Of a stretch of DNA of 29,171 bases, positions 9,503 through 19,913 are shown piece after piece. The stretch is from the IMG/VR virus record IMGVR_UViG_3300048044_000038, positions 1 through 29,171 of that record; one strand, written 5' to 3'. The first letter of the stretch is position 1; each line of letters opens with the position of its first letter. The notes under the pieces were generated by a model, which was not told the DNA's origin, did no database searches, and was given only the letters and a program-made list of their open reading frames with translations. The DNA comes from a virus. Both the position numbers and the translations under genes were made by a program.

Positions 9503-11137
9503 TTATTGATTTACGTAAGCTAGATATTCCGTTTTGTACATTTGGAATATGGCAAGACAGTTGACTAGTGTGGCCACACCATCAATTTTCTTTTCGGCAT
9601 TGGACTTGCAAGGCATGATTCGGCCATACTTATCCGTTGCGATCGCAACATTACCAAGACACCACCGGTCAACCGGATTGTCTTGGTAGACGATGTGCTT
9701 GCTCCGAAGTTCTGCCCCCAGTAAATTAAAAGGGTTCGACAACGTAATGAACGTTTGTCGAACCGCCTCCATAGTGGGCTGATCTAAATCGTCAAAGATC
9801 TCAGCCATTTCCTTCACCCAAAATTTCGCCAGAGCATTATCATAGCCAATGCGATAAGGCCGGAAGTTGTATTTTTGGAACGTACGTAAAAACCATTGGG
9901 TGATCAACGAAAAATCGTTATCATTGCCCGGTGAAACGGTGATCAGTCCTTGCTGGACCCATTGACGGTAGTCTATGCCATCGTCCTTAATATCCAGTTT
10001 GGCTTCAGGAATAAAGTATTGCGTCAGCATATATTTCTTGGGATCGCCAGCACGCATAATCATGATCCGTGCATTGCACAAATCGGTTGTAAACGCTAAA
10101 TCGGCGCCACCAATCACGTAGCACCCTCTAAAGTCTTCTGGATTAAACGTCGATTCATTACTATAAACATCAGGACTGAATGCGGCATTGGCATTGTTTT
10201 GCTTGATGTTAAAATCCTTGGAAAGCACGAACCCGCGCGTCTGCATATTGGTTTTTGCTTCGTCAACCATACCGCGCAGGAAGGAACGTTTTTTTATCGT
10301 CCCAAGACCGGGGTTGGACTTCACCCAGCTTTTCTCATCTTGCCAAACCTCGGCCTCGTTGTCTTGCGTATAGAGCCAAACCAACCAGCGCGGTCTTTCC
10401 AGTTCGCCTTCCAGCACTTGGCGGGCCTCTTTCAATCGCAAATCTAAATAGCCATCTTGAACAAATCCCTCGGTGGTTAGTTCGAAAAACAGCGGTTCTT
10501 CTTGAGTAGACAGCGACTGTCTAATTGGCATAATAGCCGTGTCGTCTTTCATTTCGTGGACTTCATCCGCCATGCCCACTGCAATATTCCGGCCTTCCTT
10601 CGCCCCGGTCTTAGCCGAAATCTTTCGGATGTTTCCTTTGTTCATGTAACTATATTTTCCCGTCTTTTTGGGCTTGCGAGGATTGCCGAAGAAGATTCCC
10701 TTGATGCTTTTTCTGGTCATCTTTTCCAGTGCGGGACTTTGCTCGCGCATGGCATTGATCGCTTGGAAGGCAAGATCGGCCTGTTCGTAATCGTTACTTG
10801 AGCAGAGAATTTTCGTTCCCATTCCACCACAAAAAAATTCAGCCAAACAAATGGCTGAAACTAAGGGGGTCTTGCCCGACTTGCGAGCTACAAGAAACAT
10901 GATTTCTTGATATTTACGAACCGACTTCTCCAGTTCGGCATCAACAATTTTGAAAGAATAGATGGCTTCGATAAAGGCTTTCTGAAACAACATTAAGATA
11001 AAGGGCTTTCCGGCATGAGGCGCTTCGCTGTGACGGCATTGCGTTTCGATAAATTTAATCCGTCGGTGGGCATCTGCTGGCTGAAACTGTATATCTGGAT
11101 CGTCAAAGTGTTCCAGCAGTAAGTCAAGTTGCTTCAT
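9503..11137 (-). CDS. terL: Terminase large subunit
   Basis: This is a 544-residue product when read from ATG 11137. The ATPase has Walker A at residues 84-90 (ARKSGKT) and Walker B VGMADEVHEM with Asp191/Glu192. TTEGFVQDGYLD and YTQDNEAEVW are typical of this terminase group. The nuclease domain starts at about residue 340 with GGADLAFTTDLCN and includes the late KKIDGVATLVNCLA segment. It packages DNA through the portal. The start is uncertain: the same frame stays open upstream to a well-placed ATG at 11239, and the 33 codons in between encode conserved terminase N-terminal sequence (SYLLEYIQRCKSGEIVIGSE). The second codon of that longer frame is TAG. The annotated product may therefore lack its usual N-terminus. 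Confidence 0.93.
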   Translation of the reverse strand: MKQLDLLLEHFDDPDIQFQPADAHRRIKFIETQCRHSEAPHAGKPFILMLFQKAFIEAIYSFKIVDAELEKSVRKYQEIMFLVARKSGKTPLVSAICLAEFFCGGMGTKILCSSNDYEQADLAFQAINAMREQSPALEKMTRKSIKGIFFGNPRKPKKTGKYSYMNKGNIRKISAKTGAKEGRNIAVGMADEVHEMKDDTAIMPIRQSLSTQEEPLFFELTTEGFVQDGYLDLRLKEARQVLEGELERPRWLVWLYTQDNEAEVWQDEKSWVKSNPGLGTIKKRSFLRGMVDEAKTNMQTRGFVLSKDFNIKQNNANAAFSPDVYSNESTFNPEDFRGCYVIGGADLAFTTDLCNARIMIMRAGDPKKYMLTQYFIPEAKLDIKDDGIDYRQWVQQGLITVSPGNDNDFSLITQWFLRTFQKYNFRPYRIGYDNALAKFWVKEMAEIFDDLDQPTMEAVRQTFITLSNPFNLLGAELRSKHIVYQDNPVDRWCLGNVAIATDKYGRIMPCKSNAEKKIDGVATLVNCLAIFQMYKTEYLAYVNQ

Positions 11138-12499: not shown

Positions 12500-12688
12500 T
12501 TATTTTTTTAGCGTAAGCCAGCCTTCTTCTAACCCTTCCTCAATCTCATCCTCTGTGTAAATAAGAACCTCGATATCTCCATCATCCTGGGGTATCAGTA
12601 CATAGCTTTCGTTTACTACATATAATTTGCCAGCTAGCATGTAGAGTTCGTCATATACTTCAAAAATGGTTCCTTTGGCGTACTTCAT
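12500..12688 (-). CDS. Small acidic protein of unknown function
   Basis: This is a 62-residue protein from ATG 12688 with CGGAGGG upstream, starting one base after the stop of the previous small gene. It is strongly acidic towards the C-terminus (TEDEIEEGLEEGWLTL). The N-terminal half (MKYAKGTIFEVYDELYMLAG) looks beta-rich. It is related over its last 32 residues to the broken gene at 11639-11801, so the island carries two versions of this protein. I recognise no named family. Confidence 0.65.
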   Translation of the reverse strand: MKYAKGTIFEVYDELYMLAGKLYVVNESYVLIPQDDGDIEVLIYTEDEIEEGLEEGWLTLKK

Positions 12689-12689
12689 C

Positions 12690-12848
12690 TTATACCCTCC
12701 GACTTTTATAAAAACTTTCCCGTAGCCGCTCCGTACGAATTTTGTGTATCAAGAGAACGTCTTCTTCTGTCACCTGCCTGGGCAGCACAAATATATTTAA
12801 TTTTTGAAGTTCTTTAGAGATAAATTTGCGACGGTACCCAAGAATCAT
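12690..12848 (-). CDS. Very small basic protein (52 residues)
   Basis: The frame runs from ATG 12848, with GGGGAGAAGG upstream, to TAA 12690. The product starts MILGYRRKFISKELQKLNIF and ends in a run of basic residues (RTERLRESFYKSRRV). It is tightly followed by the next gene (one-base gap), which has its ribosome site inside this gene's last codons. I recognise no family. Size, ribosome site and coupling support a real gene; the basic, helical end might bind nucleic acid, but that is only inference. Confidence 0.6.
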   Translation of the reverse strand: MILGYRRKFISKELQKLNIFVLPRQVTEEDVLLIHKIRTERLRESFYKSRRV

Positions 12849-12862
12849 TTTCCTTCTCCCCA

Positions 12863-12886
12863 TCCTGTTCTTTTGTCAGTGTCATG
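12863..12886 (-). repeat. 24-base direct repeat, copy 1
   Basis: This is an exact 24-base match to 14650-14673. On the minus strand it starts CATGACACTGACAAAAG and encodes the opening MTLTKEQ of a short frame. Here that frame is out of phase with the 52-residue gene and stops after 23 codons. Confidence 0.9.
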
Positions 12887-12943
12887 ATAGCTCTGCAAAC
12901 ACAGGAAAATAAGGAATATCTTCATTTTTTATCCGTCTTCTCG

Positions 12944-13201
12944 CTAATTCTCCAGTTTACTTGCAAAACCTGCGGCGATCAGTCCATCCAATAATTGACG
13001 GCTTTTTTCTTCAACCGTCCGCTTACCAACATCGATGCCAATGCCAGTAAACCGGAACACGTTAGCCGCTACATACGTGATATATGCCTCCACATGAACC
13101 AGTGTATCCCGGTGAAAGCATTCGCCCCACATTTCGCCGACAACCGCCTCGGGCGAACCTTCATATTCTTTGTCGTTCATCCATACTCGCACTTTTATCA
13201 C
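12944..13201 (-). CDS. Small protein coupled to the cyclotransferase
   Basis: This is an 85-residue protein. Its GTG at 13201 forms a four-base GTGA overlap with the stop of the upstream cyclotransferase gene, so the two are translated together (GTG 13204 is a second possibility). It begins VIKVRVWMNDKEYEGSPEAV, continues with a hydrophobic middle (VHVEAYITYVAANVFRFTGI) and ends with a helix (SRQLLDGLIAAGFASKL). There is no membrane span or Cys motif. I recognise no family. The tight coupling suggests it works with the cyclotransferase and amidoligase. Confidence 0.75.
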   Translation of the reverse strand: MIKVRVWMNDKEYEGSPEAVVGEMWGECFHRDTLVHVEAYITYVAANVFRFTGIGIDVGKRTVEEKSRQLLDGLIAAGFASKLEN

Positions 13202-13680
13202 CACATCCTAAAATATCGTTTAATCTTATACCGCGGTTCTTCCTCCGGAAAAGCCGCTGCTTTTACCGCCTGGTCAAGAGTACCGATATCAAAACAGGCT
13301 TGGCGATAGCCTTGCCGGATAACGTTGTAGTACCTGCCGCCCGGTGTGCCAAACATCAGGCCTTCATTCATCACATACACCATTGCCTTTACCTGGTTTC
13401 CCCTACAGGTCACGGTCACAGTTTCCTTGTGGTAGAGATGAGGGAATCCTTCATACCGATCCAGCGCCGCTTCATCTGCCGGTCGAAGCTCCCACAATAA
13501 TCCCGGTACTACGCCAGCTGCGTCCGGCTCAATGTTTGCCACCGCGCCGCCGTCCATCCCCCGGAAAGTCAGTTTATATCCCTTTAGCTTCACTGACCCC
13601 AGCGCCCATGCAGTCGCACAGCGGCGCGTCATCTGCCCCAAATTTAAGTTGCTGCCGTAGGCCAAATAGATCGTCTTCAT
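13198..13680 (-). CDS. Gamma-glutamylcyclotransferase-like protein (AIG2/GGCT fold)
   Basis: This is a protein of about 160 residues. Three ATG codons stand in a row (13686, 13683, 13680); the third is best spaced from AAGGAG and gives MKTIYLAYGSNLNLGQMTRR. The YGSN loop near the start is the family's glycine-loop substrate site. It is followed by GSVKLKGYKLTFRGMDG, VPGLLWELRPADEAALDRYE with GFPHLYHKE, and a late beta strand. The fold releases 5-oxoproline from gamma-glutamyl amides or hydrolyses related isopeptide-like bonds. Lying after an amidoligase, it probably edits or opens the bonds that enzyme makes. GC content looks higher here than in the phage core. Confidence 0.85.
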   Translation of the reverse strand: MKTIYLAYGSNLNLGQMTRRCATAWALGSVKLKGYKLTFRGMDGGAVANIEPDAAGVVPGLLWELRPADEAALDRYEGFPHLYHKETVTVTCRGNQVKAMVYVMNEGLMFGTPGGRYYNVIRQGYRQACFDIGTLDQAVKAAAFPEEEPRYKIKRYFRMW

Positions 13681-13697
13681 CATCATTTCTCCTTAAT

Positions 13698-13727
13698 CGG
13701 GGCGGCGGAAAAATCCGCCCCGCCTTT
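13698..13727. other. GC-rich hairpin between amidoligase and cyclotransferase genes
   Basis: The plus strand reads GGCGGA AAAA TCCGCC with extra flanking GC pairs, then five T. The T-tract is on the plus strand, where no gene ends. On the minus strand it is a hairpin without a T-tract. It may moderate read-through from the amidoligase to the cyclotransferase or protect mRNA. Confidence 0.4.
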
Positions 13728-13730
13728 TTC

Positions 13731-14636
13731 TTACGCCGCGTATCTCCAGGCGCTGTTGCCGTCCAGCTTGGCCAAAAGGTGCAGCCTGGCAGTCTTGAAC
13801 TCGTCACCGATCAGGCCCAATCTCAGCAGCCAAGTTCTAAAGGTGAACTTTTCGTTGGTGCTTGTCGTTTTCCTGGCCGATGCGCTCTTTTGCACAATCG
13901 CCTGGTGGCTGACTGCCAGGCAAAATTGAATATATGCCTTAATTTTTCCGGCATGAAGATCGCAAGGGGTGTTAAAAAGCCTGAATTCCACGGTCCCTTT
14001 CGAGAATACCGAGTGGAGATTCAGGCCATGATATCGGCTCGTATGATAATGCTGGCTGCTTCCGTCGCCGCCGTAAGGTTTGTACCACAGTGTTTTTAAT
14101 TCTTGCAGCGTCTGAGGTTTAATGCGATTGATTTCTTCTACCAAGCTGCTGTTCGCCTTCCGGCAATACAATGACATCCGACTAGCGTGAACCTCAAGGG
14201 CTTTATAGACTAGGTCCTCTTTGCTCGCCATCAGGTTGACCAGGTTCCGCAGGGTTTTGGCGTTGTGATTGGCAGCATCCACGTGAATGTGAATCCCACA
14301 ATTTCCTGAATTGGCGAAGGCCCCTGCCGCCCGAAGATTCCTGACCAGTTCCTGGATGGTTTCGATATCTTCGTACCGACATTTGGGCGAAACCACCTCG
14401 ACTTGATAGGCGTCACCAACTGGTATGAGTACACCGTTTACTTTTTGCAAGGCTTTAATGCTGCCATCCCTAACAACCCGCCATGTGCGGCCCTGGTGAT
14501 CAATTACCGTATATTCCCCGTAAATGCCACCTTCATACTCAGAACTTGTGCCAAAGTATGCCGCGATAGTTTTGGCGACTTCTTCCCTTTTCATCCCGGT
14601 GAGTTCAATTTCGATGCCGAAGTTTTGGCTTTTCAT
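13731..14636 (-). CDS. Amidoligase (GS/ATP-grasp-like COOH-NH2 ligase, Amidoligase_2 type)
   Basis: This is a protein of about 301 residues from ATG 14636, with AGGAGG 11 bases upstream; ATG 14672 would add 12 residues. Motifs of the glutamine-synthetase-like amidoligase group are FGIEIEL with Glu9 and Glu11 (metal/ATP strand), RDGS at 56-59, YQVEVVSPK with Glu80, CGIHIHVD with His116 and His118, and TVEFRLFN with Glu217 and Arg219. The family is predicted to make amide or peptide bonds with ATP, and its genes often lie beside a gamma-glutamylcyclotransferase, as here. C-terminal residues about 255-300 are shared with the paralogue upstream. The substrate is unknown; peptide, cell-wall or protein tagging are options. 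Confidence 0.85.
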   Translation of the reverse strand: MKSQNFGIEIELTGMKREEVAKTIAAYFGTSSEYEGGIYGEYTVIDHQGRTWRVVRDGSIKALQKVNGVLIPVGDAYQVEVVSPKCRYEDIETIQELVRNLRAAGAFANSGNCGIHIHVDAANHNAKTLRNLVNLMASKEDLVYKALEVHASRMSLYCRKANSSLVEEINRIKPQTLQELKTLWYKPYGGDGSSQHYHTSRYHGLNLHSVFSKGTVEFRLFNTPCDLHAGKIKAYIQFCLAVSHQAIVQKSASARKTTSTNEKFTFRTWLLRLGLIGDEFKTARLHLLAKLDGNSAWRYAA

Positions 14637-14649
14637 GCTGCTATTAACC

Positions 14650-14673
14650 TCCTGTTCTTTTGTCAGTGTCATG
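14650..14673 (-). repeat. 24-base direct repeat, copy 2
   Basis: This is an exact match to 12863-12886. On the minus strand the repeat holds ATG 14672 and the codons of MTLTKEQ, in frame with the amidoligase. The AGGAGG of the next start follows directly. A related shorter version (ATGACAAACACACAGGAGG) precedes the paralogue near 15551. Confidence 0.9.
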
Positions 14674-14728
14674 TTACCTCTTAAAGAACAGCATATCAAG
14701 TTAATTACGCCATTTTATCATCTTTTAA

Positions 14729-15526
14729 TCAATTTTTATTCTTATTACGCCTGATTACTGCTTTATACACCTGTTCTTGCGTTTTAAAGGCTACATTACC
14801 TTCCAGTCGGTCAAGAAATAGTTTCCGACTGACGCGATACGCCTCGCCTATGAAGTGAAGCCGGAGCAAGAAAACGCGAAAACTATATTTCTCATTAGCT
14901 GTTTCCGTCTCGCGCGGCGAGGAACGCTTCAGTTCCAGTGTCATTTTGTTTACGGCAAAGGCAAACTGGATATATGCCTGAAGGTCTTCTAGCTGCAGTG
15001 TCGCGGCAAAACAGCGGAAGGTTATGGATTCTCTAGTAATGCCGATACCTGGACAAGCTTCATTGCCAGTAGCTTCAAAGAAATCATCAATCGTTTTTAT
15101 TTGGGCAAAGTTGATTGCCTTCACCATTGCTGGGGAAATAATTAATGGCGCTTGCCCCATTGATTTGAGTATCAACCTTTCCTTGCTTGCCAGAATATTT
15201 ATCAGATTGCGCAGCGTCACACCATTATGTCCTTCTGTCGATAGTGTTACTAATGCTTTCCCTTGAGCGGCTAACCCATTTGCTTCGAGAACCTTCAATA
15301 CCTCGAACCTTTTCACCAAGTCATCTTCCGCTGCACCTCCGATAAGCAGCGTACCGATTTTGTCAATACGCCATTCTCGGTCGTCACTTTCTTTGATCAA
15401 ATACTCAAAACTTGGTGTTTTCTGATATTCTGCTTGTGTTCCGAAATGGCTAGCGATAAGACCGGCAACCACTTTTCTTTCTCGGCCTTCAACTTTCATT
15501 TGAATCCAAAAGCTGTTTTTATCCAT
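14729..15526 (-). CDS. Amidoligase-like paralogue without active-site residues
   Basis: This is a 265-residue protein from ATG 15526, with AGGAGG eight bases upstream. It aligns with the amidoligase at 13731 from its first residues: FGTQAEY against FGTSSEY, TLRNLINILASKE against TLRNLVNLMASKE, and TANEKYSFRVFLLRLHFIG against STNEKFTFRTWLLRLGLIG. Yet each catalytic site is changed: Glu9 to Gln, Glu11 to Lys, Asp57 to Ile, the VEVVSP block lost, HIH to VTL, and Glu of VEFR to Thr. The frame is intact, with its own ribosome site and no stops. It looks like a pseudoenzyme kept for a regulatory, scaffolding or substrate-binding role beside the active enzyme, and not a decaying gene. Confidence 0.75.
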   Translation of the reverse strand: MDKNSFWIQMKVEGRERKVVAGLIASHFGTQAEYQKTPSFEYLIKESDDREWRIDKIGTLLIGGAAEDDLVKRFEVLKVLEANGLAAQGKALVTLSTEGHNGVTLRNLINILASKERLILKSMGQAPLIISPAMVKAINFAQIKTIDDFFEATGNEACPGIGITRESITFRCFAATLQLEDLQAYIQFAFAVNKMTLELKRSSPRETETANEKYSFRVFLLRLHFIGEAYRVSRKLFLDRLEGNVAFKTQEQVYKAVIRRNKNKN

Positions 15527-15541
15527 GAATATGACCTCCTG

Positions 15542-15577
15542 TGTGTTTGTCATGTACAGTACGCCATAGCAAACACA
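15542..15577 (-). promoter_or_regulatory. Inverted repeat in the leader of the amidoligase paralogue
   Basis: TGTGTTTG (15542-15549) and CAAACACA (15570-15577) are perfect 8-base arms around a 20-base loop. The downstream arm touches the AGGAGG of the gene. It could be an operator or an RNA hairpin that limits access to the ribosome site. The loop holds an alternative in-frame ATG. Confidence 0.4.
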
Positions 15578-15598
15578 TGAAGTCAAGTTATAAAGAAC

Positions 15599-17443: not shown

Positions 17444-18655
17444 TCATCCCCCCGCTAATACGGCCTTGTTACCAGTCAGTTGTTCCCAGCGTTTCACGAT
17501 AACATCACAGTAAACAGGATCAAGTTCTGCCATGTAACAAATACGACCAATTTGTTCTGCTGCCATCAGTGTTGATCCAGAACCACCAAACAAATCCAGT
17601 ATAATATCGCCAACCTTGCTGGAATTCCCCATCGGATAAGAGACGAGAGGAATCGGCTTCATTGTTGGATGCAGTTCATTCCGAAATGGACGGTCAAACT
17701 TCCAAAGGGTTGTTTGCTTACGGTCTGAATTCCAATTGTGTGGACCAGTCGGTTTCCATCCGTACAATACAGGTTCATGCTGCCAATGATAATCTTGTCT
17801 GCCCATCACTAAAGTTTGTTTTGCCCAAATACAACATTGTGCCAGTTTAAAGCCAGCATCGATCATACCTTTGCGAAAATTCATCCCTTCGGAATCAGCA
17901 TGAAAAATATAAATCCCAGCGCCATCTTTGCAGGAAGCAAAGGCCTGGGAATAAAAATCAAACAAAAACCTGTAGAAATTATCATTCGTCATCTTATCAT
18001 TCATTATTTTGAGAACATCTTTGGTTCCTCCAGTATAGTCCACATTGTACGGTGGGTCAGTAATAACTAGGTCAGCCAGCTCTCCATTCATCAATCTTTC
18101 AACATCACTTTTAGCAGTAGCATCACCACAAATCAACCGATGATTTCCCAACAGCCAAATGTCTCCTAACTTAGTTATGGGTATGTCAATTTCTTTGACG
18201 GCACTTTCTGGATCGAAGTCATCCTCCTTGACGTCTTTTTCCTCGTCATTCAGCACTTCATTCATTAACCGCTCAATTTCTTCGTTGTCAAATCCGGTTA
18301 TTTCAATATCAAGATCTGTCGCTTGAAGTTCACCAAGCAAATCTTGCAGTTTCGGCATATCCCAGTCGCCACCAGTTTTATTAAGAGCGAGATTGAGCGC
18401 CTTCTCTTGATCAAGCGATAAGTCGACCAGAGAAACTTCGACAGTTTCATGCCCCATCTCCCGAAGAATCTTAAGCCGTTGATGACCGCCAACTACAACA
18501 TTTCCTTGCTTATTGACAATGATAGGGTCAATATAGCCAAATGCAAGTATGGATTTTTTGAGCTTATCATAGTCTTTATCGCCTGGTTTAAGGTCAATAC
18601 GCGGATTATATGATGCAATATTTAGCCTTTCTATCGCTAGTTTGGCTATTTCCAC
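17444..18655 (-). CDS. ParB-like domain fused to adenine/cytosine-N4 DNA methyltransferase
   Basis: This is a protein of about 403 residues. GTG 18655, eight bases after AGGTGG, is preferred; GTG 18667 has no ribosome site. Residues 1-90 are a ParB/Srx-like domain with SYNPRIDLK, GYIDPIIVN and VVGGHQRLK. Residues about 160-400 are a beta-class amino methyltransferase: the catalytic VITDPPYNVDYTGG comes before the SAM-binding DLFGGSGSTLMAAEQIGR, with a long target-recognition region between. It probably methylates phage DNA to escape host restriction or to mark packaging sites. ParB-methyltransferase fusions are common in Firmicute prophages beside terminase genes. There is no partner restriction enzyme. 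Confidence 0.92.
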   Translation of the reverse strand: MEIAKLAIERLNIASYNPRIDLKPGDKDYDKLKKSILAFGYIDPIIVNKQGNVVVGGHQRLKILREMGHETVEVSLVDLSLDQEKALNLALNKTGGDWDMPKLQDLLGELQATDLDIEITGFDNEEIERLMNEVLNDEEKDVKEDDFDPESAVKEIDIPITKLGDIWLLGNHRLICGDATAKSDVERLMNGELADLVITDPPYNVDYTGGTKDVLKIMNDKMTNDNFYRFLFDFYSQAFASCKDGAGIYIFHADSEGMNFRKGMIDAGFKLAQCCIWAKQTLVMGRQDYHWQHEPVLYGWKPTGPHNWNSDRKQTTLWKFDRPFRNELHPTMKPIPLVSYPMGNSSKVGDIILDLFGGSGSTLMAAEQIGRICYMAELDPVYCDVIVKRWEQLTGNKAVLAGG

Positions 18656-18735
18656 TCTAAAACCCACCTTTTTATAAAATATAGTGATTCACTTTAAAAT
18701 TCTCATTTGGATAGGAATGAGTGAAAAGAATATAG

Positions 18736-19484: not shown

Positions 19485-19913
19485 CTAGTATATCACTTTC
19501 CCTTCGTCATTTTCGTCAACTTTGTTTTCTTTTAGAAATTTATTATGTTTGCGCCGAGGCTGCTGTTCATCACTTGCACCAATACTGTAAGCAATCTGCT
19601 GCCAACTAAAGCCATTAACATACCTAAGACTTAGGATCATTCGAATTTCACTGTCCTCAATGTTCTGTATATAGCAATTCAGCCTATTGAGTTCATAAAA
19701 GCACTTCTTGAGGTTAATATCTAACAGACTTTTAAGATCTGCAATCTCTGCTACATATTTTCCCAGCTTATCCGATATGCCAGACGCTGTAGGCATACCT
19801 GTTATTTTTGCCGTACAAGAGTTTGCCAAACATTCTAGTTCAGAAAGTCTGCTTTGTAGCTGCCCTATCTCACGGTTCAAATAGTATAGCTGAGATAATT
19901 CATCTTTTGTCAT
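19485..19913 (-). CDS. DUF1492-type sigma-like phage regulator
   Basis: This is a 142-residue protein with an ATGA overlap to the helicase stop. The N-terminal 90 residues are helical coiled-coil (LYYLNREIGQLQSRLSELEC). The C-terminal part is a sigma-region-4-like HTH: IEDSEIRMILSLRYVNGFSW followed by QQIAYSIGASDEQ. This arrangement is that of DUF1492/ArpU-like proteins, which in Firmicute phages often control late transcription. As last gene before the terminator it fits that role. Confidence 0.8.
   Translation of the reverse strand: MTKDELSQLYYLNREIGQLQSRLSELECLANSCTAKITGMPTASGISDKLGKYVAEIADLKSLLDINLKKCFYELNRLNCYIQNIEDSEIRMILSLRYVNGFSWQQIAYSIGASDEQQPRRKHNKFLKENKVDENDEGKVIY

Follow-up and report, generated by a model that had tools for sequence, protein, structure and literature searches.

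Amidoligases join a carboxyl group to an amine using ATP, and gamma-glutamyl cyclotransferases (GGCT) free gamma-glutamyl groups as pyroglutamate. Here we describe a locus in IMG/VR record IMGVR_UViG_3300048044_000038, a fragment of a phage genome analysed over its whole 29,171 bases (hereafter the window), in which genes for both protein families lie beside a full-length amidoligase relative that lacks the catalytic residues. Phage neighbourhoods with a glutamine synthetase (GS)-like amidoligase adjoining GGCT were described by Iyer, Abhiman, Burroughs and Aravind (2009, Mol BioSyst 5:1636), as cited in PMC11253131 and PMC11318856, with a predicted role in peptide or cell-wall modification, e.g. 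against superinfection; modification of the host surface against other phages is the use suggested for the enzymes (Iyer 2009 as cited in PMC11253131). Two 'amidoligases' and a GGCT were also annotated in the Terrisporobacter phage TPDSL_ph1 (PMC11253131) and in prophages 13alpha and 13epsilon of C. clostridioforme LM41 (PMC11318856), the latter genes being known here by that paper's annotation. Their set and order, two amidoligase-annotated genes and then GGCT, are those of the window, which encodes:

14729..15526, minus strand: B (P0002), pseudo-amidoligase of 265 amino acids; fold kept, catalytic residues gone
13731..14636, minus strand: A (P0001), intact GS-like amidoligase of 301 amino acids (Amidoligase_2)
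13198..13686, minus strand: GGCT (P0003), gamma-glutamyl cyclotransferase; YGSNL and Glu present
12944..13204, minus strand: P0004, small protein of no family, overlapping the end of GGCT (by GTGA if read from a second GTG at 13201)

These four open reading frames (ORFs) lie where an initial annotation of the sequence had placed them, and the GTGA overlap that it reported for GGCT and the small ORF exists provided that translation begins at the second GTG. We consider it fairly probable that the locus joins two separate units, a resident B and a plug-in amidoligase-GGCT cargo, both under a regulon marked by a shared promoter-like leader.

B and the intact amidoligase

Protein A matched Pfam Amidoligase_2 with an E-value of 7.9e-70 (236 bits, against a cut-off of 22 bits) and carries the complete E/E, D, HxH and E-x-R set, which its conservation leads us to judge catalytic. 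These positions were invariant or nearly so in 71 homologues, and the set was kept in nearly all A homologues; the match and the motifs bear out the initial view of P0001 as an intact GS-like amidoligase. GGCT matched PF06094 (GGACT; 53 bits against a cut-off of 22.8) and retained both YGSNL and the catalytic-type Glu when aligned to human GGCT. P0004 was conserved behind GGCT in the related loci L005-L007 and L039. For A, B, GGCT and P0004, a PADLOC search for defence systems gave no match and an NCBIfam search nothing useful; no PDB sequence was matched by the amidoligase or by either of the two profiles.

Over its whole length, P0002 was 27% identical to P0001 (BLASTP), and hhalign aligned B with A at full length (E 3.3e-46 over 255 columns). 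It matched phrog_2443, 'amidoligase enzyme' (1.4e-40), and fell below the cut-off of Pfam Amidoligase_2 (PF12224; 13.8 against 22 bits). Relative to A, it shows the substitutions E9 to Q, E11 to K, D57 to I and E217 to T, the VEVVSP segment (around E80-P84) is missing, and H116 and H118 are replaced by T and S in the BLASTP alignment; the Arg of VEFR is retained, as ITFR. The substitutions listed in the initial annotation stand except for 'HIH to VTL', which was one residue out of register, both histidines being lost all the same. The full catalytic motif set was absent from every B homologue in the sets examined (about 130 loci). The C-terminal part is kept, as had been noted, in a module NEKYxFRxWLLRLGxxGxEYKxxRKxLLxxLxGNxAFR, with R272, G277 and R284 of A preserved in nearly all B.

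The amidoligase fold expected for the paralogue is supported by the hhalign result and by structure prediction: AlphaFold models of B and A had a mean pLDDT of 93.8 and 94.7, and the best structural match of the B model was the ligase YbdK (Z 11.6, rmsd 3.9-4.0 over 213 residues; Z 14.0-14.2 for A). In both models the match is to the carboxylate-amine ligase fold; plant glutamate-cysteine ligase (Z 11.6 for B, 13.8 for A) and Dop (Z 9.4 and 11.1) were also matched, as were GS folds by both models.

B occurs as full-length ORFs throughout about 130 loci. Its dN/dS was 0.11-0.50 in 108 pairs, roughly double the value for A between the same phages (simple Nei-Gojobori estimates), and a single branch with support 99 divides A from B in the tree. 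P0002 is therefore not a chance ORF, given its many homologous loci and low dN/dS. The loss of every catalytic residue would suit a decaying amidoligase pseudogene; the intact ORFs, a dN/dS well under 1 and the deep clade of its own, however, leave this explanation a negligible probability, and we reject it on the evidence of purifying selection, the outcome that the initial annotation had set against decay. Judged from its sequence, B is a true pseudoenzyme held by purifying selection. That it might be a neo-functionalised enzyme, with another pocket now catalytic, we regard as quite improbable. K18, N211, K213, R217 and R234 are invariant polar residues across 68 homologues and the predicted fold is intact, which speaks for such an enzyme, but most invariant residues lie in the C-terminal helical module common to the active enzyme, and they fit a structural or binding role at least equally well. 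B is most likely a binding or regulatory protein acting on its own, which would bind something through the old fold or the C-terminal module.

PHROG 2443 lumps A and B as one family, 'amidoligase enzyme'. The two-amidoligase annotations of both papers agree with this lumping; that of TPDSL_ph1 is misleading, because its first 'amidoligase' is a B, without the catalytic motifs. Of the prophages of sequenced species that carry a B relative, the nearest was that of Propionispora sp. 2/2-37. Two different B genes and an amidoligase lie on one contig in L160 (106-927, 4263-4919). A 508-amino-acid B-like ORF in the record of L046 was considered as a B fusion and rejected, being a motif-intact amidoligase fused to a ParB domain; in that record (L385, 562-1947) GGCT follows the fusion, so that the upstream neighbour of the slot described below is joined to the enzyme.

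B and the amidoligase unit in related phages

Co-occurrence was counted in the 60 phage records ranking closest by SNF2 helicase similarity, thinned manually to 52 so that near-identical records were not counted repeatedly; choice by backbone lets records without either gene enter the count. A and B were both present in 24 backbones, A only in 4, B only in 17 and neither in 7, and thus showed no association among these nearest backbones (Fisher p 0.31). GGCT was found in 28 of the 28 backbones with A and in none of the 24 without it (p 2e-15), so the amidoligase-GGCT association named in the initial annotation is upheld. Whole records were also searched by profile: all 49 that carried B alone lacked an amidoligase, and all 50 that carried A alone, many of them fragments, had no separate B. 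Over 73 B tips of the tree, the presence of A switches at least 21 times. Among 81 prophage loci of sequenced species, retrieved via a B-like sequence so that their proportions are not a sample, 37 had A and GGCT, 27 B alone, 16 all three and one B and GGCT. In L095 (6974-8318) and L170 (7974-9318), the sole case of B with GGCT seen, B is directly followed by GGCT, with no amidoligase and with the ParB-methyltransferase downstream, not upstream.

The setting of these genes is given by the following features:

17444..18667, minus strand: ParB-DNA methyltransferase, upstream border of the slot
12690..12848, minus strand: small ORF of 52 amino acids, behind a third leader copy
12500..12688, minus strand: g12500, ORF of 62 amino acids, directly after B in relatives without the A-GGCT unit
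9503..11137, minus strand: terminase large subunit (TerL), downstream border of the slot

In the order of transcription on the minus strand, the ParB-methyltransferase is followed by small terminase-like, HNH and P-loop genes, B, A, GGCT, P0004, small ORFs and the large terminase, and the portal and capsid genes lie beyond the latter. B occupies this same slot, from ParB-methyltransferase to large terminase, in Ca. Heliusvirales phages with or without the amidoligase. L169, L092 and L094 have the methyltransferase, B, g12500 and the terminase in succession, and in L169 B and g12500 share an ATGA overlap; in the window and in L005-L007, the amidoligase, GGCT and P0004 sit between B and g12500. 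From these gene orders we conclude that A-GGCT-P0004 is a discrete unit, present or absent beside a resident B; the initial proposal of phage cargo is supported for the amidoligase unit. A 51-nt repeat lies on either side of this unit in the window, at 12863-12913 and 14650-14700 (80% identical, 24 nt exact), and a weaker third copy precedes B at 15537-15587. A search of the collection's viral contigs for the exact 24-nt repeat found it in the window only.

The initial annotation had proposed that A and B form an active/inactive pair, with B a dedicated regulator or substrate holder of the amidoligase and GGCT erasing the mark that it writes. Where both are present, A and B are neighbours on the same strand with a shared leader, and their evolutionary distances correlate: in 25 divergent phages with all genes, r was 0.36 for A-B, compared with 0.48 for A-GGCT and 0.42 for B-methyltransferase, and it was 0.62 in a larger, redundant set after removing the share of TerL, so some linkage or shared function of A and B is possible. 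Nevertheless, the records with only one of the two, the lack of association in the unbiased set and the closest relatives argue against such a write/erase system, which we hold to be improbable, even more so than a neo-functionalised B. Related phages with only the active enzyme had been named as the finding that would make the pairing accidental; the closest relatives of the window carry only the inactive B, which directly abuts the next gene. A functional A-B pair is not supported, and the link that survives is co-regulation, the same leader standing on both genes in phages that have both.

The window backbone comprises a polymerase, primase/helicase, SNF2 helicase, terminase, portal and capsid. 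Among the named phages nearest to it, most are gut Firmicutes phages assigned to Ca. Heliusvirales. The Ca. Heliusviridae group was described in PMC9226167, with core genes including DNA polymerase I, SNF2 helicase, terminase, portal and capsid. Several Ca. Heliusvirales core families are present in the window; judged from the gene content of a fragment and its nearest named relatives, it appears to derive from a temperate phage of the Ca. Heliusvirales type, gut-type.

The leader of slot genes and serine integrases

The upstream regions of A and B in the same phage resembled each other (median z 8.7 over 55 loci), compared with a z of 0.4 for A and GGCT. In the window, the evidence for this leader consists of the 51-nt repeat and an A/B leader similarity of z 5.0, in the following elements:

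15535..15587, minus strand: leader of B, with a CTTGACTT...TGTGTTTG/CAAACACA stem, ending at the Shine-Dalgarno
14648..14700, minus strand: leader of A, with a CTTGATA...CTGTTCTTT/AAAGAACAG stem, ending at AGGAGG
12863..12913, minus strand: third leader copy, 80% identical to that of A over 51 nt, on the far side of A-GGCT-P0004

The leader core is CTTG-N15-AGAGTGAT. A 40-nt matrix built from 58 non-redundant leaders (CTTGcTATT, about 7 free bases, TTTAGAGTGATwwATG) gave 254 matches on the gene strand, 2 on the opposite strand and none in 754 kb of shuffled sequence. The leader preceded B in 77 of 114 cases, GGCT in 2 of 138, and A in 32 of 44 when beside B and 8 of 59 without B (p 9e-10). Complete phages had few copies each, mostly in the slot and some elsewhere, and none showed the reversed pattern. 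In 9 of 15 stretches with further copies, a large serine recombinase was directly behind the leader; behind those in the other six were a second B (1), an excisionase-like protein (1), other small ORFs (2) and no gene (1), and one copy was in the slot. Pfam Resolvase and Recombinase were confirmed for two of the leader-headed serine recombinases. A scan of IMG/VR viral contigs with a strict consensus placed at least 36 B, at least 8 serine recombinases, at least 7 A and at least 30 other small genes behind the leader, and the slot genes include RadC-like, DUF4314 and DUF6329 proteins. No Rfam family reached the gathering score in the region, and the leader core sequence was not found in the literature searched.

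On this distribution, the genes of the slot form an island united by a single element, which the integrase shares. The leader-headed genes look like a lysogeny regulon, in which the leader would be a promoter active in lysogeny. A late lytic promoter, making the slot genes late genes, would agree with the position of the slot, which lies among the packaging genes and ends at the large terminase, and with the precedents in phage T4, which are late promoters (PMC3014915, PMC2988022); the leader, however, was found before none of 313 terminase, portal and methyltransferase genes and does stand before serine integrases, which renders a late promoter unlikely.

Further observations concern the leader and its neighbours. 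A leader copy in L254 (reverse strand; position 168 of the reverse complement) stands before a helix-turn-helix protein of excisionase-like type. This points to an element that marks further parts of the integration module in addition to the integrase. Many metagenomic phages (L272-L343) encode, behind the leader, a protein of one 118-amino-acid family (MKEIKAFEEAKATGANFKESGINST...). Between the SNF2 helicase and the slot of the window, at 19485-19913, a small protein resembles by eye a sigma-region-4/ArpU-type regulator and is a candidate activator of the leader.

Between its two conserved blocks, the leader holds a variable stretch that is complementary to a stretch ending at the Shine-Dalgarno; in many copies, the paired arms extend up to or over the latter. 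Own arms paired better than exchanged arms (7.87 against 6.01, z 11.8, 20,000 permutations), even between A and B of one phage; for A of L005, the own arms scored 13.6 and the left arm with the right arm of B 6.0. Read-through RNA of the window folded with -14.4 (A) and -20.6 (B) kcal/mol, compared with -2.0 and -3.7 for RNA started in the loop and lacking the left arm; relative to shuffles, the fold z-scores of these leaders were modest (-1.4 for A, -2.6 for B). The leader may thus include a translation lock of the T4 type. Alternatively, it could be a DNA operator or promoter whose inverted repeat is read by a dimeric regulator, with no RNA lock. Placed between -35-like and -10-like blocks, the left arm might be left out of locally started transcripts, and the integrase copies mostly lack a long stem, both of which would suit an operator. 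A fixed operator, however, would not require arms that vary between the genes of one phage yet stay complementary, nor right arms that usually reach the Shine-Dalgarno, and we consider this alternative possible, if somewhat unlikely.

Taken together, we favour an explanation in which two separate units adjoin in an accessory slot, bounded by the ParB-methyltransferase/small terminase genes on one side and by the large terminase gene on the other. B would be a resident, near-core phage protein with an amidoligase fold devoid of the residues for ATP and metal chemistry, selected with or without the amidoligase, and amidoligase-GGCT(-P0004) a mobile cargo operon plugged in beside it. The ligase would form an amide bond at the cost of ATP, and GGCT could cleave off a gamma-glutamyl residue in the form of pyroglutamate. 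One regulon, used at the establishment of lysogeny or in the lysogen, would probably take in both units, the other small slot genes and the large serine integrase of relatives; a role in the lysogen would follow from expression together with the integrase. In read-through mRNA, the paired arms at or over the Shine-Dalgarno would give poor translation, and a transcript begun inside the loop would be free of them. In its most specific form, which we offer as tentative and would not yet call probable, a promoter-in-hairpin leader ties the inserts of a Ca. Heliusvirales plug-in cargo slot, including the dead amidoligase, to the integrase regulon and silences them in lytic read-through, so that translation proceeds only from the local promoter.

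Besides the correlation of A and B distances, several points weigh against the favoured explanation. The leader of the window is divergent, with TAACATG instead of AGAGTGAT, a form also found in its close relatives, and the window, being a fragment, holds no integrase. Its third leader copy folds no better than shuffles, integrase leaders mostly have no good or long stem, and the covariation of the arms was weaker in the strict scan set (z 4.0). Because of these last two points, we regard the promoter-like blocks as the common part and the lock as an optional layer.

Comparison with known systems

Lengsin and other pseudo-glutamine synthetases are GS-fold proteins said to have lost enzyme activity; their lineage is unrelated to that of B and they have no phage context. 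The B family is widespread in gut phages, where it is filed as 'amidoligase enzyme' or 'virulence-related protein' without the catalytic residues of that enzyme. The Streptococcus and Gardnerella phages Javan191 and vB_Gva_AB1 carry such a 'virulence-related protein', which belongs to the B family and lies in the same slot; these phages differ in having no amidoligase or GGCT, and nothing that we found supports the name. Correcting the annotation of B matters for a phage group first noticed in a study of metabolic syndrome (PMC9226167). If the shared leader does mark a regulon, it would show which genes are switched on with integration, and hence serve the lysogen, and it would provide a sequence tag for finding such cargo genes; the function of amidoligase-GGCT would then become approachable in lysogens rather than in lytic cultures.

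The neighbourhoods of Iyer et al. share with the window the adjoining amidoligase and GGCT, and differ in that a dead paralogue as an independent gene and a shared leader are not described for them, as far as they are cited in PMC11253131 and PMC11318856. In phage T4, longer transcripts of e and I-TevI form a stem over the ribosome-binding site, and locally started transcripts without the 5' strand are translated; soc and 49 have related leader structures (PMC3014915, PMC2988022). The phage leader described here would, from its sequence, have the same placement of stem and promoter. It differs from the T4 leaders in its promoter blocks and in being one repeated element on cargo genes and the integrase, compared with scattered late genes in T4. 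New at this locus is the occurrence of one strand-specific leader on B, the amidoligase and other slot genes that, in related phages, also heads the serine integrase.

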